Shown: piece by piece, positions 1,053-46,080 of the stretch
Position numbering within the stretch: the first letter of the stretch is position 1
Layout of the letters: each line of letters begins with the position of its first letter
DNA from: Anadara kagoshimensis
Taxonomy: Eukaryota; Mollusca; Bivalvia; Arcoida; Arcidae
DNA length: 64,000 bases
Reading direction: 5' to 3'
Assembly: GCA_021292105.1 (NCBI GenBank)
Contig: CM037871.1
Location: 53,923,261-53,987,260, forward strand
Notes under the pieces: model-generated
The model's input: only the letters and a program-made list of their open reading frames with translations
Databases searched by the model: none
Told to the model about the DNA's origin: nothing
Made by a program: the position numbers and the translations under genes

Positions 1053-4000
1053 AGTTATAATTTCACAAAATTACATACATTTTGAATCAGTTTCTGTCAG
1101 TAAAATTATATAATGTTGTTTTGGTGAAGTGTTTGACATCAGAATTCTTAATCCAGTCCCAATTGATTTTAACTCATCTGTAACCTTTATATCAGTAAAA
1201 TTTAAGTATTGTTATTGTTAATAGTTCTAAAAATAGACAGAAAAAGTATTAAATGATTTAAATACAGTCCTTTAAAATTTCTTAGGTTTTATTTGAGATT
1301 TTAAGATGTTATCTAGTAGGATAAGTAGTGAACATATTAATTCACTTGCATCATAAAATTAAGAACTTCACCTAATCTTGAATTTCAAATTGTGAGATAA
1401 TCCTGCATTTAGCATTGTATTTCAAAATTTAACTGTCAATGACAACCCTGTCAATCATCCAGCCCACTTTTAAATGCCAAAGGAAACAAGCAACATCATG
1501 GCACTTGTCGAACCAATTTTAGTTATTGATGTTCTCAAAATCTCTTTTTAAGAATTCAGTTTGCAAATATATACATATATAACAGAGTTCTTAATATTTT
1601 GTTTCAAGGTAACACCTGGTATCCGTGGGTTACTGGTGACCTGGATGACCCAGATACATCATCAGCTGACCTTGTGTCAAGACACACTTTTCATCGCTGT
1701 GAACATTGTGGATAGAGTTTTAGATGTGATGCAGACATCCAGGGATTACTTACAATTACTTGGTGTGACAGCTATACTCTTAGCTTCTAAATTAGTAAGT
1801 CAGACAATGATGTTAGGGTACATACTTGCTCTGAATCCCCTTCATGTCTTAGATAACTGGAATCTGAAGCTAGATCCTGATGCCATGAAGCCTTCAAGTT
1901 TTAGACTACCACTACACTAGAATGGAGTTTTACCAGAATAAATGCGAAATTCTGAAATAGTTAAGACACTTCCTGTAATCTTACTGAAAGTCTGGTATAT
2001 TAACACCACATCCTCTAATAAGTTAAAATCCACAAACCTATGTCCCAGTGTCACAGCAGGTGTGGCATGTTACAGAGCCCTCCCTGCAACATTGCATTGA
2101 GCGCACTGCAATAGTAAAAATTTCTGCCAATTCACCAATAGCTGGTGATAACTTCATATAAAAGAAATATTCTTGATTGGGATTTTAAACCCATTCAATC
2201 CATTTTAACTTGGCTATATGGCTCCAATATCATAATATTAACGGTGACAATTTACCTTCAAGTTCTGTATTTGTTTTATGATATTCATTGGTTATTGTGA
2301 ATTGGACATCTATGGATAATTTGTCAATTTTAAAAAAACATTACTGTGATGATTCAAATAGTTCATATCTTGCACTTACATAAAAGTTTAAGTTTCACAA
2401 TGCAGACATTAGTACTGGTATATTACTCTGCAACATAAATCGTCCTCTATTTATGACATCACAACCACCTGTTTCAGAAGTAGGTTTTGTCAAGTCTGCT
2501 GATTTTGCAAAACGTCCACTTGTGACATAGAAAATTGTCAAATCTAGTATTGTTTATATACTGTTTATATGTTTATATACTGTGACAAAACTTGACCTTT
2601 TAACCACTCATTCTGTTATGTACCACTGCGGTAGCTCCTCATGCAGTTAATAGAGTGCTTGCTATGTATATGGGAGGTTGTGGGTTTGAACCCTGACCAG
2701 GGTCTGACTAAGACTTGAGAATAAGTAGTGACTCACTATAGTCACCAAGCACTTAACATTAAGAAATAAAAATCTCATGGTCCTTCAGAAGATACCTTAA
2801 AAACTTATGCTCCTTTGTCAAGACAAGTTGGCACATTAAATAACCCTTCCTGCAAAAGTCAAAATTTTTCCACTTTACCTATAGCTGGTGACATCTCAAT
2901 ATTATAAAAAAACTAAGATGTTAATCTCCATTCTGTCAATCAAATAATCAGTCATTCTGTTGAATTCATTTCACTTGTTCAGTTTTCATTGTATATATTG
3001 TAATTTCTGTTTGATTTCAGGAAGAGATACACCCTCCAGAGATTACAGAACTTTTGAGTCTGTGTGATGGAGTTTTTACAAGAGCACAGGTTAAATATTT
3101 AGAACATGTTGTGTTAAAGGCTATTAACTTTGATTTATTGGTACCTACCTCCCAATTTTTCCTAGAGTACTTCGCATCTCAAGTTGTTGGTATGCATAAA
3201 GGATTTGATGCTGATAAACTGAGGTACTTGTATTCAAATTAAACCTACATTTTCAACTTCTTATTTTTCTTCTAAGTCTAATAAATTTGACCCTATTTCT
3301 TGTTTAAGTACAGTTAACATGATTTAAAAGCCATCTCTAGATATCCAACAACCACCTGTCTATAAAGACTTGTGTTTAATTTCTACCAAGCCTTATTATT
3401 TTGTTCTTAATCTAATCTATATGTAAGAAATAGCGTAGTTTGATAATGTTTTATGCCAAGTCAAGATTTATTGACATATAATGAGGTAATCAGTTCTGTG
3501 ATGGTGGTAGAAACCTAAGTAACTAGAGAAAACCACTTTAAAATTGACAAGTGAATTTACATTTACTTTCTCATATGAAGATTCTTAGTGGGGTTCAATC
3601 CTGGGTGGTGAGAGGTGCTGTGATCTGTAAGTGAGTGTTTTATACCACTTAGCCACCATGGCCCCCTATGTATAAGGATGGTCACCGTCACCATGGCCCC
3701 CTATCGTCTAACTGAGTTAAAGACAACCCTATTTTTCTATCAGGATGGCATTGTCATGAAAAATCATTGGACAATCTTATTAGTTACTTAAGCAGAGCTG
3801 CCAACCCTATTTCAATGTTATTGAGGGTCCGACCAAAATCTGATTGTGTCTGGGTGCATCCCTCCAAAAAGAATTGAAAATTATAAAAAAAAAAAAAAAT
3901 ACAGTGCATTGACAAAATTATAAATAAACGATATGGTGCATTGCCCTGTGATTTGAATGGATACATTATTATGTACATAGTAATTTTTCACTGGCCTGCT

Positions 4001-6708: not shown

Positions 6709-8553
6709 TTTTTAGCTCACCTGACCAAAGGTCATGTGAGCTTATGGTATGGTGCAGCGTGTGTATGTGCATGGGTGTGTGCGTGCGTGCGTCGTTAACA
6801 CACATTTTCGACTACTCCTCTGAAAGTACTTGGTAGATTTTAACGAGACTTGGTCAGAAGCATGTCTGGGTCGGTGCAATTCAGATTTGTTCGTGGCGTT
6901 GCCATGGCTACCATAACTAGGTCAAGGTGACCTAGGGGTGCAAAAATCTTAAAAAATCTTCTTCTCCGAAAGTATTGTTTGGAGAAAAAATCTGATGTGA
7001 TATTTGGCTTCTCTAGGGTCTTAAGCCTATAGTTTGTTCATTTTGTGAAATTCGGTCGAAAAATGGGTTACGCGTTTTTGCATTTAATTTTGAAAAAATC
7101 ATAAAATAGCTTCAAATTGTTATAACTTGACTACTTGACCACATATTGACATGGGGTTTTCAGTTTTGACATCTTCTTGTTAGTATCTTCAAAATAAAGT
7201 CAAGGTCAATTATGAAGGTCGTGACCTATTTTTTTTACCTCTGATTATAATTATTATCTCGAAAACTATAAACTTTTTGTATAGTCATGTATATTAGAAT
7301 GTTGTAGGTATTGATACAGCGATCATTTTGATGTATAGAAAAAGGTCATGGGTTCAAAGGTCAAGGTCACAGATGCTAATCAATACTGAAATGGTTAATT
7401 ATCTCGAAAACTATAAATTTTTTGTATAGGCATTTATATTAGAATGTTGTAGGTATTGATACAACAATCATTTTGATGTATAGAAAAAGGTCATGGGTTC
7501 AAAGGTCAAGGTCACAGATGCGAATCAGTACCGAAATGGTGAATTGTCTCGAAAACCATAAACTTTTTGTATAGGCATGTATATTAGAATGTTGTAGGTT
7601 CAAAGGTCAAGGTCACAGATGCTAATCAATACTGAAATGGTTAAATATCTCGAAAACTATAAACTTTTTGTATAGGCATGTATATTAGAATGTTGTGGGT
7701 ATTGATACGACGATCATTTTGATGTATAGTAAACGGTCACGGGTTCAAAGGTCAAGGTCACAGATGCAAATCAATACTGAAATGGTTAAATATCTCGAAA
7801 ACTATAAACTTTTTGTATAGGCATTTATATTAGAATGTTGTGGGTATTGATACGACAATCATTTTGATGTATAGTAAACGGTCATGGGTTCAAAGGTCAA
7901 GGTCACAGATGCGAATCAGTACCGAAATGGTTAATTATCTCGAAAACTATAAACTTTTTGTATAGGCATGTATATTAGAATGTTGTGGGTATTGATACGA
8001 CGATCATTTTGATGTATAGTAAACGGTCATGGATTCAAAGGTCAAGGTCACAGATGCAAATCAATACTGAAATGGTTAAATATCTCGAAAACTATAAACT
8101 TTTTGTATAGGCATGTATATTAGAATGTTGTGGGTATTGATACAACGATCATTTTGATGTATAGAAAAAGGTCATGGGTTCAAAGTTCAAGGTCACAGAT
8201 GCGAAAACAATACCAAACTGGTTAATTATCTCGAAAACTATTAACTTTTTGTATAAGCATGTATGTTAGAAAGTTGTAGGTATCGATACAACAATAATTT
8301 TGATGTATGGAAAAAGGTCATGGGTTTAAAGGTCAAGGTCACATATGTAAAACAATACTGAAATGGTTAATTATCTCGAAAACTATAAACGTTTTGCATA
8401 GGCATGTATATTAGAATGTTGTAGGTATTGATACAATGATCATTTTGATGTAAAGAAAAAAGTCATTGGGGTTTAGTATTTACATTTACTTTAAATCTAT
8501 CAGCTAGCCATTAGTTATCAGGTGAGCGTATAAGGCCCATGGGCCTCTTGTTA
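6709..8553 (+). mobile_element. non-autonomous element with ~146-bp internal tandem array, copy 1
   Basis: It starts 'tttagctcacctgacc' and ends 'atcaggtgagcgtataaggcccatgggcctcttgtt', so the ends carry a short imperfect inverted repeat (GCTCACCTGA/TCAGGTGAGC). The interior from ~7250 is about eight copies of a ~146-bp unit with the word ggtcaaggtcac, spaced 145-146 bp except one shortened unit of ~100 bp. No coding frame is present. Related copies lie at 15229, 28826 and 44597. An AT-rich core array between short conserved ends resembles the array-bearing elements known from bivalves; class assignment is not possible here. Confidence 0.8.
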
Positions 8554-10004: not shown

Positions 10005-11930
10005 TATATTTGGGTAAAAGTGGATTAATAGACCCCCATGTTACATCTGGGTAAAAGTGGATAATAAACCCCCATGTTCTATCTGGGTAAAAGTGGATTA
10101 ATAGATACCCTTGTTCTATCTGGGTAAATGTAGATTTATAGTATCCCATGTTCCATCTTGGTAAAAGTGGATAATAGATCACCATGTCCCATCTGGGTAA
10201 ATGTGGATTTATAGTATCCCATGTTCCATCTTGGTAAAAGTGGATTAATAGATCCCCATGTTCTATCTGGGTAAAAGTGGATTAATAGATCCCATGTTCC
10301 ATCTGGGTAAAAGTGGATTAATAGATCCCCATGTTCCATCTGGGTAAAACTGGATTTATAGATCCCCTTGTTCTATCTGGGTAAAAGTGGATTAATAGAT
10401 CCCAGTGTTCCATCTGGGTAAAACTGGATTTATAGATCCCCTTGTTCTGTCTGGGTAAAATTGGATTTGTAGATCCCCATGTTCCATCTGGGTAAAACTG
10501 GATTTATAAATCCCCTTGTTCTATCAGGGTAAAACTGGATTAATAGATCCCCATGTTCTATCTGGGTAAGAGTGGATTAATAGATTCCAGTGTTCCATCT
10601 GGGTAAAATTGGATTAATAGATCCCTATGTTCCATCTTGGTTAAACTGGATTAATAAATTCCCATGTTCTATCTGGGTAAAAGTGGATTAATAGATACCC
10701 TTGTTCTATCTGGGTAAAATTGGATTAATAGATCCCTATGTTCCATCTTGGTTAAACTGGATTAATAAATTCCCATGTTCTATCTGGGTAAAAGTGGATT
10801 AATAGATACCCTTGTTCTATCTGGGTAAAATTGGATTAATAGATCCCTATGTTTCATCTGGATAAAAGGGGATTAATTGATCCCCATGTTCTGTTTGGGT
10901 AAATGGATAAATAGGTCCCATGTTTCATCTGAGTGAAAGTGGATTAATAAATCCCCATGTTCTATCTGGGTAAAAGTGAATTAATAGATACCCATGTTCT
11001 ATCTGGGTAAAAATGGATTAATAGAGCCCCTTGTTCTATCTGGGTAAAAGTGGATTATTAGATCCCTATGTTCCATTTGGGTAAAATTGGATTAATAGAT
11101 CACCACGTTTCATCTGGGTAAAAGTAGTTTAATAGATCCCTTTGTTCTATCTTGGTAATGTGGATTCATAGATTATGTTCCATCTGGGTAAAAGTAGATT
11201 AAAAGATCCCCATGTTCTATTTGGTTAAAATTGGATTAATAGATCCCCATGTTCCATCTGGGTAAAAGTGGATTAATAGATCCCCATGTTCTATCTAGGT
11301 AAAACTGGATTTATAGATCCCCTTGTTCTATCTGGGTAAAAGTGGATTAATAGATTCCCAGGTTCCATCTGGGTAAAACTGGATTTATAGATCCCCTTGT
11401 TCTGTCTGGGTAAAATTGGATTAATAGATCCCCATGTTCCATCTGGGTAAAACTGGATTTATAGATCGCCTTGTTCTATCTGGGTAAAATTTGTATTTAT
11501 AGATCCCTATGTTCCATCATGGTAAAACTGGATTAATAGTTCCCATGTTCTATCTGGGTTAAAGTGGATTAATAGATCCCTATGTTCCATTTGGGTAAAA
11601 TTGGATTAATAGATCACCACGTTTCATCTGGGTAAAAGTAGTTTAATAGATCCCTTTGTTCTATCTTGGTAAAGTGGATTAATAGATTATGTTCCATCTG
11701 GGTAAAAGTTGATTAATAGATGCCCATGTTCCATCAGGGTAAAAGTGGATTAATAGATCCCATGTTTCATCTGGGTAAAATAGATTAATAGATCCCTGTG
11801 TTCCATCAGGGTAAAATTGGATTAATAGATCCCCATGTTCTATCTTGGTAAAAGTGGATTAGTAGATCTTCACGTTCCATTTGGGTAGTTCTCCAAGTTT
11901 TAAGTTGGTTAAAGTGGATAAATAGATCCC
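10005..11930. repeat. 37-bp minisatellite, about 52 copies
   Basis: The unit reads gttctatctgggtaaaag then tggattaatagatccccat. Two main variants differ at gttcTat/gttcCat and aaGtgg/aaCtgg and alternate irregularly. Short higher-order duplications occur, for example 10615-10730 repeated at 10730-10845. The 37-bp period shifts the frame each unit, so the open frames on the minus strand are not coding. Confidence 0.95.
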
Positions 11931-15228: not shown

Positions 15229-16368
15229 CGTTTTTAGCTCACTTGACCGAAAGGTCATGTGAGCTTTTGGCATAGCGCAGCGTGTGTATGTGCATGTGTG
15301 CGTTGTTAACACCTATTTTCGACATCTCCTCTGAAACTACAAGACAGGTTTCAATGTAACTTGGTCAGAAGTATATATGGGCCGGTGCAATTCAGATTTG
15401 TTCATGGGGTTGCCATGGCTACCATAACTAGGTCAAGGTGACCTAGGTGTGCAAAAATCTTAAAAAATCTTCTTCTCTGAAACCAATTATTGGAGAAAAT
15501 TTCTGATGTGATATTTGGCTTCTCTAGGGTCTTAAGCCTATAGTTTGTTCATCTTGTGAAATTCGGACAAAAAATAGGTTACGCGTTTTTGCGTTTCATT
15601 TTGAAAAAAATTGTAAAATAGCTTCAAATTGTAATAACTTGACTATTTGACCAGATAATGACATGGGGTTTTCAGTTTTGATATATTGATGTTATTATCT
15701 TTAAAATGAGGTTAAGGTCAATTGTCAAGGTCATGACGTATTTTTTTGGCCTCTGATTATAATAATTATCTGGAAAACTTTTAACTTTTTGTATAGGCAT
15801 GTATATTAGAATGTTGTAGGTATTGATACAACAATCATTTTGATGTATAGAAAAAGGTCATGGGTTCAAAGGTCAAGGTCACAGATGCGAAACAATACTG
15901 AAATGGTTAATTATCTCGAAAACTATAAACTTATTGTATAGGCATGTAATTAAAAAATGCTGTAGGTATTGATTCAACGATCATTTTGATGTATAGAAAA
16001 AGGTCATGGGTTCAAAGGTCAAGGTCACATATGGGAAACAATACCCAAATGGTTAATTATCTTGAAAATTAAAAACTTTTTGTATAGGCATGTATATTAG
16101 AATGTTGTAGGTATTGATACAACGATCATTTTGATGTATAAAAAAGGTCATGTGTTCAACAGTCAAGGTCACAAATGCAAAACAATACCTAAATGGTTAA
16201 TTATCTCGAAAACTATTAACTTTTTGTATAGGCATGTATATTAGAATGTTGTAGGTATTGATACAATGGTCATTATGATGTAAAGAAAAAAGTCATTGGG
16301 GTTTTAGTATTTATGTTTTCTTGAAATCTAACAGCTAGTCATTAGTTATCAGGTGAGCGTATCAGGCC
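15229..16368 (+). mobile_element. non-autonomous element with ~146-bp internal array, copy 2 (interrupted end)
   Basis: Same left end (tttttagctcacttgacc) and same interior as 6709-8553, with about four array units. At the right end the sequence reaches 'caggtgagcgtatcaggcc' and is then interrupted by the inverted-repeat insertion at 16369-16546. Confidence 0.75.
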
Positions 16369-25059: not shown

Positions 25060-25395
25060 TAGCTACATTTAAGTTGGTAGAGTGCTCGCTTCGTATGTGG
25101 AAGGCCGTGGGCTCAAATTCCGGTCGGTGTCTGACCAAGACTTGAAAATAGGCAGTGACTTGTTCTTTCGACAAGCACTTGGTATTTAGTAATGAAAGTC
25201 ATGGGGTCATTCGGAAGGGATCTTAGACACCAATACCCCATGTCACGACACGTTAAAGAATTGTCCTGCACATTAATTGCCCCAAGCGGTCAAATTTTAA
25301 GGCACTTTACTAATAATTGGTGACCTCTCGATATAAGTGAAATATTTTTGGCTGGAACATAAAACCCCATGAAATCAATCAATCAATCAATCTAA
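25060..25395 (+). repeat. tRNA-derived SINE with (AATC)n tail
   Basis: The head 'agttggtagagtgctcgctt' and B-box-like 'gggctcaaattccgg' are followed by 'gtctgaccaagacttgaaaa'. The trailing block 'aataattggtgacctctcga' precedes (AATC)n. This is the most complete copy of the family also seen at 2625 and 61790. Confidence 0.8.
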
Positions 25396-25995: not shown

Positions 25996-26016
25996 CTTTC
26001 TGCAACTTTACCTATA
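25996..26016 (+). repeat. left part of the SINE split by the long-TIR element
   Basis: 'cctttctgcaactttacctata' continues across the insertion with 'gctggccaagtctcgatacc' at 30752. The joined sequence matches the SINE block 'ctttacctatagctggtgac' at 2870. Confidence 0.7.
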
Positions 26017-26765
26017 CACGGGGGTAATCCTGATACACCGTATTTCATTTACGTCGGAGTATTCCGTCGGTTTTCATTTACGTCCGAGTAAAATGATACA
26101 TTTTTGGTCGTTACGCTTTACGTTAAAGAGCAAAAAGCACGGTTTTTCATATAACTTCACAAAAACGAAACTTTAAAAGAAAGCAAAAGTTTATTCGCAT
26201 TATATTTGATGGTACTTAACTGCCTCATATAAAATCTTGCAAGAAATAGTCATATTTTTCACGTTCCTGTAACATTTCCAATTTTGGCCGGTCCCTTTGT
26301 TTAGCAGCTGATTTTAATAAAACGGGTTTGGATTCAAATGATGTTTCTACTCAAAATTATCAAGAAATGTCTATACTTTCATAAACTTGCGAAGACAGAA
26401 GCTTTACTCTGCTTTTAAGCGAAATTTTGTTTCGTTTAAGCTGAGTAGCATAAATGTTACGCTTTCCGACCAGCTGTGTTATGCTTTACGTGAAGACATG
26501 TTACGCTTTCCGTTTAATATGATTCGCAATTGACAGAGCACACGCTTCATTATAACTTTAGAACAAACGTCTTTATCGATTAAATCTTAACTGGTTGTTT
26601 CAGAAGTGATTCAGAAAGCATTGCAGGACATGATTTTATTTTTGAAAGAAAACAGAACCATACAGTTCGTAACTTGAACCAATAAAGAAAAAACAACATA
26701 CATGTACATGCTATTCTCCCAAAAGGAAACACTTGCGAAAGTGTAAACCGACTTATAGATAGTTA
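26017..26765 (+). repeat. left terminal inverted repeat
   Basis: It contains four spaced words of the form ttacgcttTaCg/ttacgctttCCG and two copies of catttacgtcSgag near the tip, plausible transposase binding sites. By eye it differs from the right copy at roughly 3% of positions. Confidence 0.85.
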
Positions 26766-27130
26766 AGCCAATTACATAAACTATACTCCACGTCTAAATC
26801 ACGTACAAAAATTTATGATTATCTGGTAGACGTAGTCGTAAGTGGTAATTTTTTGTTCAAATTTGACTTGGTCGTGCTTTGTACGGGGTTGCCGTCGGCG
26901 GCTGTTACACTACTGAAGCACCTAAGCACGGCTAACCACGTCTAGCCACGTATAAGGCTAAAATGGTTTTGAACGTGTTCGAACGCGGGACAAGTAACCA
27001 AGGCATCGCGTCTGTAGCACTGCCGATCAAGAGTTGAGCGCGGACGTAAAACGGGCACTCCACTGCCATAGCACTGCCCAATCACGGGTAACAGCGGCTC
27101 GGCGTCGTCGGAAGCTTGGCTTGCGGCGCA

Positions 27131-27138
27131 TATAAAAG
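27131..27138 (+). promoter_or_regulatory. TATA box of the Harbinger relic's forward gene
   Basis: TATAAAAG in GC-rich surroundings, with an initiator-like TCACAATT about 29 bp downstream and an ATG at 27220. It looks like an intact pol II core promoter. Confidence 0.55.
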
Positions 27139-27219
27139 CGCCCCGCGCACGGCTGGTCTTCACAATTGCCGATCCAGATCTTCTGCAGTCCACATCTCCA
27201 CGCAATTTTCTATTTCATC

Positions 27220-27294
27220 ATGCCAAGGAAGAAGGGTTACGTTGCCAAGAAGAGGCCGTGGAAAACCAAGGCCAAGACCCTAGCTGAGGATTAG
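27220..27294 (+). pseudogene. truncated forward gene of a Harbinger-type element (24 codons)
   Basis: The frame begins MPRKKGYVAKKRPWKTKAK and stops at 27292-27294. It is strongly basic and sits right behind the TATA box. PIF/Harbinger elements carry a second, Myb-like gene besides the transposase. This could be its 5' end, cut by the internal deletion that also truncates the opposing transposase at ~27290. A free-standing basic micropeptide is the alternative. Confidence 0.4.
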
Positions 27295-28004
27295 GCTCCC
27301 CACGACCCCCAGACCCATTTGACTGTGCACGTCCCTGTTAGCGTAGGGTTTCATCATGTAGGTCTTGAGCCCGAAGGCATCGTCACCTACCAGGAAGTAG
27401 GGTATACCCTGTGTGTCACCTGGCAGAGGATCTGGCTGTTGGAATCCGGCGATGTCATTGTTCTGTAGACTCTCCTTGAACTAACTTTCATTGTAGACGT
27501 GGGCGTCAGCCCTTGCCGCTTTCGTCTACCCACAGGAATAGTTTGAAGACAGAAATGCCAGGATAACACTGAAGAGACCTTTATAGTTGAAGAAGTCGGA
27601 CCCAGCGTTGGCAAGAGCTTTGAACGCAATATGCTTCCCATCTATAATCCCAATGACATGTAGAAAATTCTACCTGGGATACCAATCATCAGCTTCCTGG
27701 CGCCACTAGACCTCAGTGTCTGGCGGGGAGAGCATCTTATGAGCATACTCGTGGACGATTGCCTCACAGACTTCACGCACCACTAGACTTATGGTGCTGG
27801 GGGGACCCATCAGGCATATTGCATCTCACGGTACTTGGAGCCAGAAGCAAGATGCCTCAGGGCGATAGCAACCTTCAGGCCTTGTTCAAGGGGTGCTTTC
27901 CAGTTGGTAGTCTCGTTGTAAGTGCTTGTGTTAGTCTCTGCACAATTGCATCGTACATCGCAGAAGGCATCCTCATAAAGGCAGTGATCAGTCGTTTGAG
28001 ACAT
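27280..28004 (-). pseudogene. decayed PIF/Harbinger transposase
   Basis: Read on the minus strand across several frameshifts and stops, the order of conserved blocks is that of the DDE_Tnp_4 nuclease. First comes ALRHLASGSKYREMQYA, then VREVCEAIVHEYA, then VIGIIDGKHIAFKALANAGS with FFNYKGLFSVILAFL, then SDAHVYNES-like, then PYFLVGDDAFGLKTYMMKPYA. The GDDAF and IDGKH blocks hold two of the expected catalytic acids. The region after KPYA is not transposase-like, so the C-terminus was lost by internal deletion. At least two in-frame stops and two frameshifts make it inactive. A Harbinger-like terminus (gtgtgaccgggcc) lies near 28430; the left terminus was not found. Confidence 0.85.
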
Positions 28005-28539
28005 CGTTTAACGGGTTAAGGTAGTGCTTTGTACGCGGAAAAATCCATTTCTTAGTGATAAGCCGCTAATCACTCGCTATACCAACGTGTAACATACGTT
28101 CGCTGACCGCGCTTTGCCCGTGACAGACCGCTAAGCTTTCGCGTCTTACCAAGTTTTAATCACTGCCGGAACGCTGATTATCACCTGCGTTTCACGTATG
28201 TTTCACGTCTTTACCACGTGTCACCCGTGGTTGTCCGCGGACTAAAGTTTTGAGCAGTTCAAAACTTTTTGCCGCGTCCGACGCCGTTCGGATTTTTCGC
28301 CGCCTCCTGTCACGTCTGTAAATCGACTGGAGCTCGTCTTAAACTCCACATCAACGCGAGCAATATCGTCTGCTTAACGGGAGACCACTCTTTGACGGGT
28401 TATGGCCGTGATAAGCCGTAAAGCGCTGTGTGACCGGGCCTTGAAAAGGATCAAATGTAGTTCATTTATTTTTTTTTTATTTTACCTTTTTCATATAGGA
28501 ATGTAGTTGAGTTGGGTAATTGTTTTTTACGCCCCAGTC

Positions 28540-28770
28540 AAGTGAAATTGTATTTTACGAGTGGTCTAAAGGGTGGGCTTATGGATCATAGTGCCTCTCA
28601 TCGCCTTGGTGCGAGTCTCACTCGGGACAGTTTTAGAAAGTTTGACAGTTCACTTGCCGAAGGTCGGCGGATTCTCTGGGTACACTTGTTTCATTCACCA
28701 TCTATGAATTGACCGTCTCGATATCTGTGGAAGAATCTTGACTGGGACTTAAAACACTATTACCCAACTC
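28540..28770 (+). repeat. SINE remnant
   Basis: It carries 'ctcatcgccttggtgcgagt' with a B-box-like 'gcgagtctcactcggga', then the block 'gaattgaccgtctcgatatc' followed by 'gtggaagaatcttgactggg'. That block recurs at ~13377. Nested in the long-TIR element. Confidence 0.5.
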
Positions 28771-28825
28771 AAATATATTCTTAGATCAAAAAGTTAAACA
28801 TTAAAACAATAGCTAGATGTACCTT

Positions 28826-29740
28826 AACGCTCACCTGATTATATACAATGGATCAATGACCGTCCCAACACAATTACAGGTTGGTTGAGATAACATGTAG
28901 AAAGTGATGCCATTATCTGTTTATATAGATTTGTTAAGATATAACAATTGTATCCATTTCAGTATTCTTTTTATATCTGTAACCTAGACCCTAACCCTCT
29001 TTATTCTTCCTATATATGTAACCTTTGACCCTGAACTGAAGACATCAGCATGTCAATACCTACAATATTCTAACATACATGCCTATACAACAAGAGATAA
29101 TTAACAATTTTGGTTTACTTGTACATGTTTGAATTTGACTTTTGAACCCATGACCTTGATCTACATCTATGTATAAAAATGATCGTCATGTAAATACCTA
29201 CAATAAACTGAAAATCCCATGCGTTATCACCAGAAATGTTTAAAAAATTAACAATTTGAATCAAAGGTCACAAACTTGGACATGGCCTGCAGCTTTGATC
29301 TGACATTAATTCGAAGAAAATAGCAAGACAAGATCAACAGTGAATTCTCCATACAGTAAACCTTTGTTGAGTTTTAAAAATTATGAACTTTAAGCAAAAC
29401 ACACGTTACCTATTTTCGTCCAGTTTTCATGAAAAACACAATTTTCATGTTCCCAGTTATCCTGAATCCAAATATCAAATCGAAATTTGCTTGCACGTTT
29501 TGGTTTCAGAGAAAAAGATTTTTTTTTTTTTGCTATATGTAGTAACAGCAGCCATCTTCTTAGACGTGGCCAAATCCCGAACAAAATTGTAAATGCCTGT
29601 TACCAAGGCATGATAATCACAAAGTTTCAAATAGTTTTAGAAGAGATAATCAAAATGTAAAGTTTACGACCGACGCACGACACACGACGGACGGTGATAG
29701 ATTGCAATAACTCAACTGAGCCCATGGACCAGGTGAAACC
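28826..29740 (-). mobile_element. old, diverged GCTCACCTGA element
   Basis: It begins 'cgctcacctgattatatac' and ends 'ccatggaccaggtgaaacc', with 'cctttgaccctgaactga' and 'aatacctacaatattctaac' shared with the array of 44597-46216. Only one or two array units remain and they are much more diverged than in the other copies. Confidence 0.6.
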
Positions 29741-29987
29741 ATATATATAAACTACATTTTTCCTTTTCAAAATGGTATTTGACACGAACAGTTTAACTTG
29801 CCTTACAGACTACCTTTATATGAAGGCCACTTGCTTTTAAAAGTTAATACAAATGTATCTCAATTGCTCTTTATTCATGTCATTCGAAACTTGTATAAGG
29901 GCCACCTACCCATAAACCCACTTTACGTGTTCCCTTGAGTAGCCTTTATCAGCAGGGTTGACTGTAGTTTTATTTGTGTAATTAGTA

Positions 29988-30746
29988 TAACTATCTCTAA
30001 GTCGGTTTACCCTTTCGCAAGTGTTTCCTTTTCGGAGAATAGCATGTGCATTGTATGTTGGTTTTTTTTCTTTATTGGTTCAAGTTACGAACTGTATGGT
30101 TCTGCATGTTTTCTTTCAAAAATAAAATCATGTTCTGCAATGCTTTCTGAATCACTTCTGAAACAACCAGTGAAGATTGAATCGATAAAGACGTTTGTTC
30201 TAAAGTTATAATGAAGGATGTGCTCTGTCAATTGCGAATCATATTAAACGGAAAGCGTAACATGTCTTCACGTAAAGCATAACACAGCTGGTCGGAAAGC
30301 GTAACATTTATGCTACTCAGCTTAAACGAAACAGTAAATTTCGCTCAAAAGCAGAGTAAAGCTTCTGTCTTCGCAAGTTTATGAAAGTATAGACATTTCT
30401 TGATAATTTTGAGTAGAAACATCATTTGAATCCAAACCCGCTTTATTAAAATCAGCTGCTAAACAAAGGGACCGGCCAAAAATGGAAATGTTACAGGAAC
30501 GTGAAAAATATGACTATTTCTTGCAAGATTTTATACGAGGCAGTTAAGTACTAATAAATATAATGCGAATAATTTTTTGCTTTCTTTTAAAGTTTCGTTT
30601 TTGTGAAGTTATATGAAAAACCGTGCTTTTTGCTCTTTAACGTAAAGCGTAACGACCAAAAATGTATCATTTTACTCGGACGTAAATGAAAACCGACGGA
30701 ATACTCCGACGTAAATGAAATACGGTGTATCAGGATTACCCCCGTG
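29988..30746 (-). repeat. right terminal inverted repeat
   Basis: Inverse copy of 26017-26765, a few bases longer through small insertions, for example a 'catgca' insertion near 30105 and changes in A runs. Confidence 0.85.
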
Positions 30747-30751
30747 CTATA

Positions 30752-31226: not shown

Positions 31227-34200
31227 TCATGTATCGTTCAGGTTAACCTCCTCCATGTCGTCTCCAGCCGTCGTCTTTTCATCTTCATCCATACCGTCTA
31301 CAACTGTCGTCTTTTCATTTCCCTCCATACCGTCTACAGCTATCGTCTTTTCATCTATCATATACTCCTCGCATGTTTTGACGTGTAGTTCAGTCATGTT
31401 TAGAAGAATCGCTTTTGACTGATGTTGTGTTTGATGCGATTTTGTAGTATAAAACTTATGCTTATCTTTCCATTCAGAATACAAGAAAACTCCGGCAAAC
31501 AGGATGAAAATTATAACGACTCCCAGTACGCCCACAATCACGCCGTCTTCTAACGCTGTTGTGGCGAACGCTTGGGGGACAGACCCCTCTAATGTTTTGT
31601 TTACGTGCGTATCATTTTCCGGGTGCACTATCTCATTATTGTTAGATATTGACTGTCCAGAGGTTGTGATAATGGGCATTGGCGTTTGTGATATACCAAA
31701 TGTATTGGTATTAACAGGTGAAGATTTGGCGTGTCCTGTACTTGCAGCGGACTGCTCCATTACATTTATAGTAGGCTTGGTCATATTACCATTTGTTGCG
31801 TCTGGTGTCGATTGCGATTCAGAATAGCTCTGTGGTGAACTAAATGTCGATTGTCTTGCTGAATTTCTTTGCCTTGCGACTTGTGTTGTTGATAAAGCGC
31901 GTGTTGTTACTCGCATCGACTGCGTTGACGAATGTCGTTGTATTGGAGCTGATTGTGTTGTTGGATTTTCTTGTGTTGTGACTGGTGTAGATTGGGGAGT
32001 TGACTGACCCCGTGTGGTAATGGCCGTCATTTTTGTTGTTGGTCCCGTTGTGCTGATTGGCGTCGATTGTGTTGTTGGGTGTACATGTGTTGTGACTGGC
32101 GTCGATTGTGTTGTTGACCGACCCTTTGTCGTAATGGTCGTCAATTTTGTTGTTGGTCCCGTTGCGCTTATTGGCGTCGATTGTGTTGTTGGGTGTACAT
32201 GTGTTGTGACTGGCGTCGATTGTGTTGTTGACCGACCCCTTATGGTAATGGTTGTCAATTTTGTTGTTTGTTCTGTTGTGCTAATTTCCGTGGATTCTGT
32301 TGGTGGATGTCCATGCGTTTTGGCTACCGTTGATTGTGTTGTTGGATGTCCTGGTGTTGTGACTGGCGTTGGTTGAGTTGTTGAATGTCCTTGTGTTGTA
32401 ACTGGCATCGATTGTGTTGTTGGATGTACATGTGTTCTGACTGGCGTCGATTGTGTTGTTGGATGTCCTGTTGTTGTGGTGGACGTCAATTGTGTTGTTG
32501 ATCCCTGTGTTGTAACTGACGTCGATTGTGCTGTTGGATGTCCTGTTGTTGTAACTGGCGTCGTTTGTGTCGTTGACCGACCCCGTGTGGAAATGGCCGT
32601 AAATTTCGATGTTGGTCCCGTTGTGCTGACTGGCGTCGATTGTCTTGTTGGATGTCCTGGTGTTGTGACTGACGTCGATTGTGTTGTTGACCGAACCCTT
32701 GTGGTAATGGTCGTCACTTTTGTTGTTTGTTCTGTTGTGCTGATTGGCATCGATTGTTTTGTTGGATATCCTGGTGTTGTGGTGGACGTCGATTGTGTTT
32801 TTGGATGTTCTGGTGTTGTGACTGGCGTCGATTGTGTTGTTAGATGTTCTGGTGTTGTGGTGGACGTCGATTGTGTTGTTGGAAGTTCTGGTGTTGTGAC
32901 TGGCGTCGATTGTGTTGTTGAATGTTCAGATGTTGTGATGGACGTCGTTTGTCTTGTTGGATGTTCTGGTGTTGTGGTGGACGTCGTTTGTGTTGTTGGA
33001 TGTTCTGTTGTTGTGACTGGCGTCGATTGTGTTGTTGAATGTTCAAATGTTGTGGTGGACGTCGTTTGTGTTGTTGGATGTTCTGGTGTTGTGACTGGCG
33101 TCGATTGTATTGTTGAGTGTTCAGATGTTGTGGTGGACGTCGTTTGTGTTGTTGGATGTTCTGGTGTTGTGACTGGCGTCGATTGTGTTGTTGACCGACC
33201 CCGTGTGGTAATGGTAGTCAATTTTGTTGTTGGCACCGCTGTGTTGACTGGCGTCGATTGTGTTGTTGGATGTTCAGATGTTGTGGTGGACGTCGTTTGT
33301 GTTGTTGGATGTTCTGGTGTTGTGACTGGCGTCGATTGTCTTGTTGAATGTTCAGATGTTGTGGTGGACGTCGTTTGTGTTGTTGGATGTTCTGGTGTTG
33401 TGACTGGCGTCGATTGTGTTGTTGACCGACCCCGTATGGTAATGATAGTCAATTTTGTTGTTGGACCCGCTGTGTTGACTTGCGTCGATTGTGTTGTTGG
33501 ATGTTCAGATGTTGTGGTGGACGTCGTTTGTGTTGTTGGATGTTCTGGTGTTGTGACTGGCGTCGATTGTGTTGTTGGATGTTCTGGTGTTGTGACTGGC
33601 GTCGATTGTGTTGTTGACCGACCCCGTGTGGTAATGGTCGTCAATTTTGTTGTTGTCCCCGCTGTGCTGACTGGTGTCGATTGTGTTGTTGGATGTCCTG
33701 GTGTTGTGACTGGCGTCGATTTTGTTGTTGACCGACCCCGTGTGGAAATGGTCGTCAATTTTGTTGTTTGTTCTGTTGTGCTGATTGGCGTCGATTGTTT
33801 TGTTGGATATCCTGGTGTTGTGGTGGACGTCGATTGTGTTGTTGGATGTTCTAGTGTGGTGACTGACATCGATTGTATTGTTGGATGTCCTTGTGTTGTG
33901 ACTGGCGTCGATTGTATTGTTGAATGTCCTTGTGTTTTGACTGGCGTCGATTGTATTGTTGGATGTCCTGATGTTTTGGTAGACGTCGATAGTGTTGTTG
34001 TGTGTTTTGGCGTTGCAACTGTCGTCTTTTGTATTGTCGAGTCACTCTGTTTTGTGCTCGTCATCAATTTTGATGAAGTATCAGTACGTATTGTTACCTG
34101 TGTTGGTTGTGCTGTCACATCGCTATGAATCGTGACATTTTTGGTGTCTACGTTGTTGGTCGTATTTGTCTCTGGTACGTTCAAAGGTTGTTTCTTTATG

Positions 34201-43900: not shown

Positions 43901-46080
43901 CACATCAATTTTTTTTTTGTTGGGCCCACAAATTATATTTTTATTCTCTTCTGGTTGACCATATTCAATTGATCCGTTTGAATTAATTACCCAAATATTC
44001 TTAATACTTTGTCAAATGTACGCCACCATAAAACATCTTGAACGACAAGAGAACTGATGCGTCATAAATGACGTTTTTTTGACGTAGTGTTTGTCACGCG
44101 ACTACTATTGTTCTATACTTTAAAGGCTACAATTACCTGGGAAGGCGACTGTATGGTTGAGAAATGTACCTTAAAGACCCCTAAAGGAGAGAGTCAATTG
44201 AAGATCAGGGCACATGCGAAAGGAAACTGCATGGAAAGAGTGAGTATTGAAAGTATTAAAACTAGAAATAGGTTAAGTTAAGAAAACTTTTAAAGCCGCA
44301 TAACTTCTGTAAGTCTGAAAACAACTGGTCTGGGGAGTGAAAAACATGAAACACCACAACACGAAAATTAATCACATTTAATTAAGACAAAGAGACATAA
44401 AACGAGTGACCATATACAATTGTTAAAACTTTAAACCTTATAATCAAGCACGAACATACCGGCCCATGTCCAAACAACAACACCATAAGCAAAGTGAAGT
44501 CTTTAACAACTGGCAAATTAAGTAGACACGTGAACTTCCACCAGGGAAGTGACACCGGGTGCACCGGAAGGGTAAGCATCTAAATTAGATTTTAACAAGA
44601 GGCCCATGGGCCTTATACGCTCACCTGATAACTAATGGCTAGCTGATAGATTTAAAGAAAACATAAATACTAAACCCCAATGAATTTTTTCTTTACATCA
44701 AAATGATCATTGCATCAATACCTACAACATTCTAATATACATGCCTATACAAAACTTTTATAGTTTTCAAGATAATTAACCATTTCAGTATTGTTTTCGC
44801 ATCTGTGACCTTGACCTTTGAACCCATGACCTTTTTCTATACGTCAAAATGATCATTGTATCAATACCTACAACATTCTAATATACATGCCTATACAAAA
44901 AGTTTATAGTTTTCGAGATAATTAACCATTTCGGTATTGATTCGCATCTGTGACCTTGACCTTTGAACCCATGACCTTTTTCTATACATCAAAATGATTG
45001 TTGTATCAATACCTACAACATTCTAATATACATGCCTATACAAAAAGTTTATAGTTTTCGAGATAATTAACCATTTCGGTATTGTCTCGCATCTGTGACC
45101 TTGACCTTTGAACCCATGACCTTTTTCTATACATCAAAATGATCGTTGTATCAATACCTACAACATTCTAATATACATGCCTATACAAAAAGTTTATAGT
45201 TTTCGAGATAATTAAACATTTCCGTATTGTTTCGCATCTGTGACCTTGACCTTTGAACCCATGACCTCTTTCTGTACATCAAAATGATCGTTGTATCAAT
45301 ACCTACAGCATTCTAATATACATGCCTATACAAAAAGTTTATAGTTTTCGAGATAATTAAACATTTCCGTATTGTTTTGCATCTGTGACCTTGACCTTTG
45401 AACCCATGACCTTTTTCTATACATCAAAATGATCGTTGTATCAATACCTACAACATTCTAATATAAATGCCTATACAAAAAGTTTATAGTTTTCGAGATA
45501 AGTAACCATTTTGGTATTGTTTTACATCTGTGACCTTGACCTTTGAACCCATGACCTTTTTCTATACACCAAAATGATTGTTGTATCAATACCTACAACA
45601 TTCTAATATACATGCCTATACAAAAAGTTTATAGTTTTCGAGATAATAATTATAATCAGAGGTAAAAAAAATTAGGTCACGACCTTCACAATTGACCTTG
45701 ACCTCAATTTGAAGATACTAACAAGAAGATGTCAAAACTGAAAACCCCATGTCATTATCTGGCCAAATAGTCAAGTTATAACAATTTGAAGCTATTTTAC
45801 GATTTTTTCAAAATTAAACGCAAAAACGCGTAACCTATTTTTTGTCCGAATTTCACAAAATGAACAAACTATAGGCTAAAGACCCTAGAGAAGCCAAATA
45901 TCACATCAGATTTTTTCTCTAATCAATACTTTCGGAGAAGAAGATTTTTTAAGATTTTTGCACCCCTAGGTCACCTTGACCTAGTTATGGTAGCCATGGC
46001 AACACCACGAACAAATTTGAATTGCACCGACCAAGACATGCATCTGACCAAGTCTCGTTGAAATCTGCCCAGTGGTTCGT

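Follow-up and report, generated by a model that had tools for sequence, protein, structure and literature searches.

A large family of non-autonomous cut-and-paste transposons with long inverted ends and 5-bp target site duplications in the bivalve Anadara kagoshimensis

What kind of mobile DNA is a 4.7-kb stretch with inverted ends of more than 700 bp, and which enzyme moves it? The question is raised by a locus of Anadara kagoshimensis that lies within 64,000 nucleotides of contig CM037871.1 (assembly GCA_021292105.1, forward strand, positions 53,923,261 to 53,987,260), hereafter referred to as the window. Here we report that this element represents a single copy of a non-autonomous cut-and-paste DNA transposon family that is large and has moved recently, an assignment that we make with high confidence. 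Transposition with a 5-bp duplication had been proposed in a sequence-only reading of the window; it is strongly supported by exact 5-bp target site duplications (TSDs) in 35 of 41 complete elements, by their shared tips and by 416 exact occurrences of the tip in the host genome. The family is a known kind of mobile DNA. As its helper we lean, tentatively, towards an enzyme of the hAT superfamily, in which 5-bp duplications occur.

The element and its target site

The element proper spans 4,730 bp (26017–30746) and is flanked by CTATA at each end (Table 1). The sequence-only reading had picked out a real element, but the 4.73-kb span that it gave (26012–30751) took in both TSDs. Its estimate of about 750 bp for the inverted ends, with CTATA outside both, agrees with the arms of 764 and 774 bp that we measured. 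These are identical over their outer 172 bp and match in 742 of 774 aligned columns (95.9%). Roughly half of the differences between the arms are family-wide, and dating from arm divergence was therefore dropped. The inverted ends (26017–26780 and 29970–30746) are CpG-rich for their base composition, with an observed/expected ratio of 1.43 compared with 0.82 for the whole window.

The 16-mer CTTTACCTATAGCTGG, which reads across the rejoined flanks, has a single match in the window when up to two mismatches are allowed, and this match, at 2873–2888, is exact. Shuffled controls averaged 0.02 matches, with a match in 2 of 100 shuffles. In a stricter test, a repeat model was built from the copies at 2062–2209 and 2812–2968 only, leaving out the flanks of the element. 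Against this model the best score for the joined flanks, 24.0 bits, came from removing exactly 5 bp, and none of 15 other offsets exceeded 19.4 bits; the maximum among 249 random joins was 5.3 bits, and the unjoined flanks alone gave weak matches (E values of 0.03 and 0.5). Because the score peaks there, the paralogous empty site at about 2.87 kb is real. It is another copy of the target repeat, not the state of the element's own locus before insertion. A further clear copy, found with the same two-copy model, lies at 25268–25392. The proposal that the flanks rejoin to match an intact short interspersed nuclear element (SINE) near 2870 therefore survives as to the join, whereas its label has to be weakened: as neither ARAGORN nor Rfam (at the gathering threshold) gave a match anywhere in the window, the target is better described as a SINE-like dispersed repeat.

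Copies and target site duplications in the host genome

A single copy in the window could not by itself exclude an inverted duplication produced by chance or by recombination. In the host genome (1.115 Gb in 36 contigs; G000), the 22-bp tip is found exactly 416 times (213 forward and 203 reverse), and the reversed-pattern control 0 times. These hundreds of tips, and the identical boundaries and TSDs of the elements read, contradict an origin as a mere inverted duplication, to which we attach next to no probability. A map made from the tips listed contains at least 314 distinct tips, a few of which are not exact 22-mers. Pairing adjacent tips less than 20 kb apart gave at least 95 pairs of 0.2 to 17.7 kb in length, 69 of 95 being 3.2–5.0 kb long. 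Two loci (G000:C9:61704450-61714930 and C6:26490958-26504121) each contain two tip pairs within a few kb of one another, which may reflect local hopping.

Stretches of the genome were fetched by end similarity (20), from the tip listing (20, of which four were halves of two elements) and in a further set of 4. The 41 complete elements read comprise the window copy, 18 first-batch copies and 22 later-batch elements. L023 and L024, each fetched with one end only, do not enter the TSD count; L030, to which L024 belongs as its left part, is included. The flanks of L037 and L038 are identical, and the two represent one duplicated locus, entered as two of the 41. Searching the host genome with the end sequence, as the sequence-only reading had proposed, thus returned hundreds of tips, boundaries common to the elements read and a modal TSD length of 5 bp. 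The family tip, CACGGGGGTAATCC, is common to these elements, with the exceptions of one changed base in L019 and an altered left tip in L014.

The first-batch copies are about 93–98% identical to the interior of the window copy, most of them over their full length; some carry inserts, have the interior inverted or have lost a part. Across the 19 copies (window plus first batch), the distance from the majority sequence is 0.15–2.2%; as the 18 were picked for end similarity, these figures describe the young end of the family. The youngest of the copies read are L026 and L011. Flanks and TSDs differ between copies, unlike what spread solely within segmental duplications would give. In two of the copies, L009 and L010, a 1-kb insert occupies one and the same internal position and is 99.3% identical between the two, and their TSDs differ; the element therefore moved after gaining the insert. 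Two small elements (215 and 306 bp) retain intact tips and a 5-bp TSD each and keep only 39–165 bp per end, which suggests that the tips suffice for movement, unless these elements shrank after landing.

None of the 41 elements has a 3-bp TSD. Duplications of 4 bp were found in L013, L014 and the duplicated locus L037/L038, and one of 6 bp in L043; L011 has a TAAGT duplication offset by one extra C. The 35 TSDs of 5 bp contain 24.6% GC, compared with 34.7% in the flanks. They show a weak NTWAN pattern, T being second in 22 sites and A fourth in 14 (for the two summed, p = 0.0009 relative to base frequency, in a test picked after looking at the data). Genome-wide, the base adjoining the 416 tips is A in 159 cases, T in 142, C in 73 and G in 42 (G by subtraction).

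No match was found for the tip pattern or the spaced motif in viral contigs, or for the tip in bacterial and archaeal contigs. The literature searched, with subscription journals mostly and Repbase wholly outside its scope, gave no description of the tip letters or of a bivalve family with long terminal inverted repeats (TIRs) and 5-bp duplications.

End motifs and interior passengers

Across 74 ends from 37 elements, conservation in 10-bp bins is 93–100% in the outer ~110 bp and 85–95% in the bins further in, values that are inflated over at least the first 22 bp because the elements were partly chosen by end similarity. The TIR holds two copies of TTTCATTTACGTCSGAGTA and four of GTTAYGCTTTMCG; TTAYGCTTTMCG occurs four times, compared with 0 in each of 1,000 shuffles. 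A transposase encoded elsewhere might bind this outer region, with its repeated TTTACGT and GCTTTMCG motifs; the borrowed enzyme would then cut at the CAC and insert the ends between target strands with a 5-bp stagger.

What lies between the ends is freight, made up of the remains of other repeats. Its SINE-like segment is present in 39 of 41 elements and absent from those of 215 and 306 bp. The stretch that follows is presumably of Helentron type, an assignment made partly from its end features; to our knowledge, Helentrons make no such inverted ends, and in the element this piece is freight. It is about 70% similar to 145-bp satellite arrays elsewhere in the window. Three arrays of such a satellite-like unit are found (7253–8466, 15763–16296 and 44686–45647), and they, like the piece inside the element, resemble the central repeats of bivalve Helentron-type HINE elements (PMC7492417).

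The third passenger is a dead, later arrival of Harbinger type. Its relic matches the Pfam domain DDE_Tnp_4 at E 0.017 and 15.2 bits, below the cut-off of 24.8 (with X at the stops), and its pieces searched singly gave no DDE_Tnp_4 match. In the 19 aligned copies every frame of the relic holds stops, and the longest stop-to-stop frame in those copies is at most 151 amino acids (aa). The inserted piece looks left-truncated when it is compared with the intact sequence of Harbinger-free members. Might this relic be the family's own transposase, the family being a PIF/Harbinger derivative? Nothing else resembling a transposase was found inside the window copy, and the relic is wholly or partly present in the 18 first-batch copies. 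However, PIF/Harbinger elements make 3-bp duplications (PMC4482050), and 19 of the 22 later-batch elements lack the piece (present in L030, L039 and L049) and have the same ends. The 5-bp TSDs and the Harbinger-free members therefore exclude the Harbinger gene as the mover, and we regard a PIF/Harbinger origin as very improbable. The history may have run from an old core of SINE-like and Helentron-like sequence, through insertion and then decay of the Harbinger piece, to amplification of the 4.7-kb form.

Several longer elements were considered as autonomous copies and rejected. L031 holds what we take, from its frames, to be a LINE-type retroelement, and L033–L034 a presumed Gypsy-type one. 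L029, L030, L032, L035–L036, L049, L050 and L051 show no transposase-like frame by eye, their frames not having been scanned with Pfam.

Elsewhere in the window, an array of ~39-bp units with a strong G/T bias on the plus strand occupies 31951–34037; judged by eye from the unit, translation of its minus strand would give a mucin-like repeat rich in Thr and Pro. A 37-bp tandem unit is present in about 51 copies at 10011–11887, and an exon-like stretch at ~3020–3230 matches the Cyclin N-terminal domain (Pfam E 9e-06).

Table 1 Features of the element and of its target repeat, in window coordinates
Feature	Position	Strand	Basis
Uninterrupted copy of the repeat hit by the element (paralogous empty site)	2812..2968	+	16-mer match and repeat model
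Second uninterrupted copy of the target repeat	2062..2209	+	Repeat model
TSD CTATA, left	26012..26016	.	Read directly; 5-bp length backed by the joined-flank test and TSD survey
Left TIR, 764 bp, tip CACGGGGGTAATCCTGATACAC	26017..26780	+	Alignment of arms; tip exact 416 times in the genome
Outer ~110 bp with the highest conservation, probable binding end for the transposase	26017..26126	+	Per-bin conservation of ends
Two direct repeats TTTCATTTACGTCSGAGTA, 29 bp apart	26043..26090	+	Repeat-family listing
Subterminal motif GTTAYGCTTTMCG, first copy	26108..26122	+	Repeat-family listing, arm alignment
Subterminal motif GTTAYGCTTTMCG, three more copies with exact 22-bp spacing	26454..26512	+	Repeat-family listing
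Harbinger-type fragment insertion, G+C rich, left end apparently truncated	26787..28440	.	Comparison with Harbinger-free members; weak DDE_Tnp_4 match
Dead Harbinger-type transposase relic with stops and frameshifts	27280..28019	-	Translated frames, Pfam
SINE-like segment with inverted pair 28470–28542 / 28737–28809	28441..28810	.	Inverted pair, survey of elements
Stretch of Helentron/HINE-like character, akin to the 145-bp satellite arrays of the window	28805..29834	.	Similarity to the arrays, end features
Right TIR, 774 bp	29973..30746	-	Alignment of arms
TSD CTATA, right	30747..30751	.	Read directly

Candidate enzymes and known systems

The ends of hAT elements read CA..TG, with a tip rule of YARNG, and the family has the same CA..TG ends. 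Its duplication length is that of hAT5, which makes 5-bp duplications (Repbase reports cited in PMC12730594). The target sites of hAT elements follow NTNNNNAN (PMC2803484), with a T near the start and an A near the end of the duplication, and the weak pattern in the TSDs of the family leans the same way. If the enzyme is of this kind, as we tentatively favour, the family would be an unremarkable addition to a 5-bp subgroup of which little has been described. From hAT5 it differs in its 770-bp inverted ends and in that no hAT gene was found between the mapped tips.

Several observations weigh against the assignment to a non-autonomous family moved by a hAT enzyme. Among the 150 of 724 hAT candidates that were scored, 0 of 150 matches lie inside the at least 95 mapped tip pairs; the closest approach is on C9, where a match lies 2.4 kb beyond a pair. 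The YARNG rule is broken at one position by the tip CACGG, whose third base, C, is unusual. An exact 5-bp TSD is absent from 6 of the 41 elements. With both strands pooled, C before and G after the TSD are each found in 39%, which recalls the Transib target CCANTGG. The sequence-only reading had stated that the interior has no transposase fitting these ends, which is right as far as the window copy goes, and reading the other 40 elements revealed none; the autonomous copy with a transposase that it had hoped for did not emerge either, 41 elements having been read of the at least 95 pairs mapped from at least 314 distinct tips. The pairs beyond those read include ones of 5.3, 5.4, 5.6 and 5.8 kb, on C5, C6 and C9, and ones of 9.3 kb (C13:35827798), 10.1 kb (C8:47855801) and 11.8 kb (C6:37008303). 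The host genome also contains a group of hAT genes with 722-aa open frames and equal scores, found at 12 or more places among the matches listed, on several contigs of G000, and this group looks recently active.

The sequence-only reading had raised, as an inference, a link to Transib-type elements, which is not supported. A Transib or RAG-like transposase is in our view unlikely, although CAC ends and 5-bp duplications are common to both. With the Transib tip consensus the family agrees in CAC only. Beyond CAC, the tip also departs from the protostome RAG-like consensus CACTWMCAAACKTYKBB, with no AAA at positions 8–10 (PMC7204232). ProtoRAG, Transib and RAG prefer GC in their duplications (PMC8289069), whereas the TSDs of the family are AT-rich. 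The context of the TSD agrees with the CCANTGG targeted by Drosophila Transib elements (PMC3276498) in the outer C and G only. The host genome does hold RAG1-like transposase genes, including one with an 832-aa open frame that scores above the Pfam RAG1 cut-off; among the 60 of 231 candidates that were scored, 0 of 63 RAG1-like matches lie inside the at least 95 mapped pairs. One tip, on C19, does have a degenerate RAG1-like relic, broken by seven stops, at a distance of 6.2 kb on its inward side. However, that tip matches the family TIR for 186 bp only and then differs, it has no partner among the tips listed, and one such neighbour is, by a rough estimate, not far from chance.

The RAG1-like genes were recorded as L053 (G000:C8:56669256-56671481, minus strand), L054 and L055. 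The 832-aa frame matches solved RAG1 chains over residues 502–634 (best E 2e-05). Three 715-aa relatives have equal scores, in elements that include C4:28143290 and C8:38664323. Two of these elements agree at 99.7% throughout the 6.4 kb fetched, their ends lying beyond, which suggests that the 715-aa element moved recently. It is conceivable, with a low probability, that the transposon family is the amplified part of an undescribed lineage (CAC, ~770-bp ends, 5-bp AT-rich TSDs) driven by a distant RAG1-like transposase of the host genome. If so, the system would be RAG-related, and its ends would differ from those described so far; a RAG-related enzyme would mark a new branch in the group that gave rise to the shuffling of immune genes in vertebrates.

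The enzyme may instead come from a superfamily outside those weighed here, or from one not yet described, a serious if doubtful possibility. No candidate gene is tied to the tips, and a pattern made of the first 14 bp of the tip followed by four bases all unlike those of the family gave 0 matches. Set against this, the absence of a candidate rests on 41 elements of the at least 95 mapped pairs, and on the 150 hAT and 60 RAG1-like candidates scored.

With the preferred reading, a non-autonomous family with a tentative hAT enzyme, comparison with known systems is as follows. Polinton/Maverick elements make a 6-bp duplication (PMC10045372), whereas that of the family is modally 5 bp and is 6 bp in 1 of 41 elements. 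PIF/Harbinger is represented by a dead fragment carried as a later passenger, and bivalve HINE elements by a satellite-like piece. Transib and RAG-like transposons share the CAC tip and the duplication length, and differ in the rest of the tip, in their GC-rich TSDs and in that no RAG1-like gene was found inside the mapped tip pairs of the family. The precise end sequence and duplication length are now defined and can be used in seeking the enzyme. In the lack of any enzyme found, in its many near-identical copies and in its 215- and 306-bp forms, the family resembles non-autonomous long-TIR and miniature inverted-repeat transposable element (MITE)-type families. It differs from them in that its common form is large (4.7 kb) and filled with the remains of three other repeats: a family without its own enzyme has multiplied to hundreds of tips with other mobile elements, now dead, aboard.

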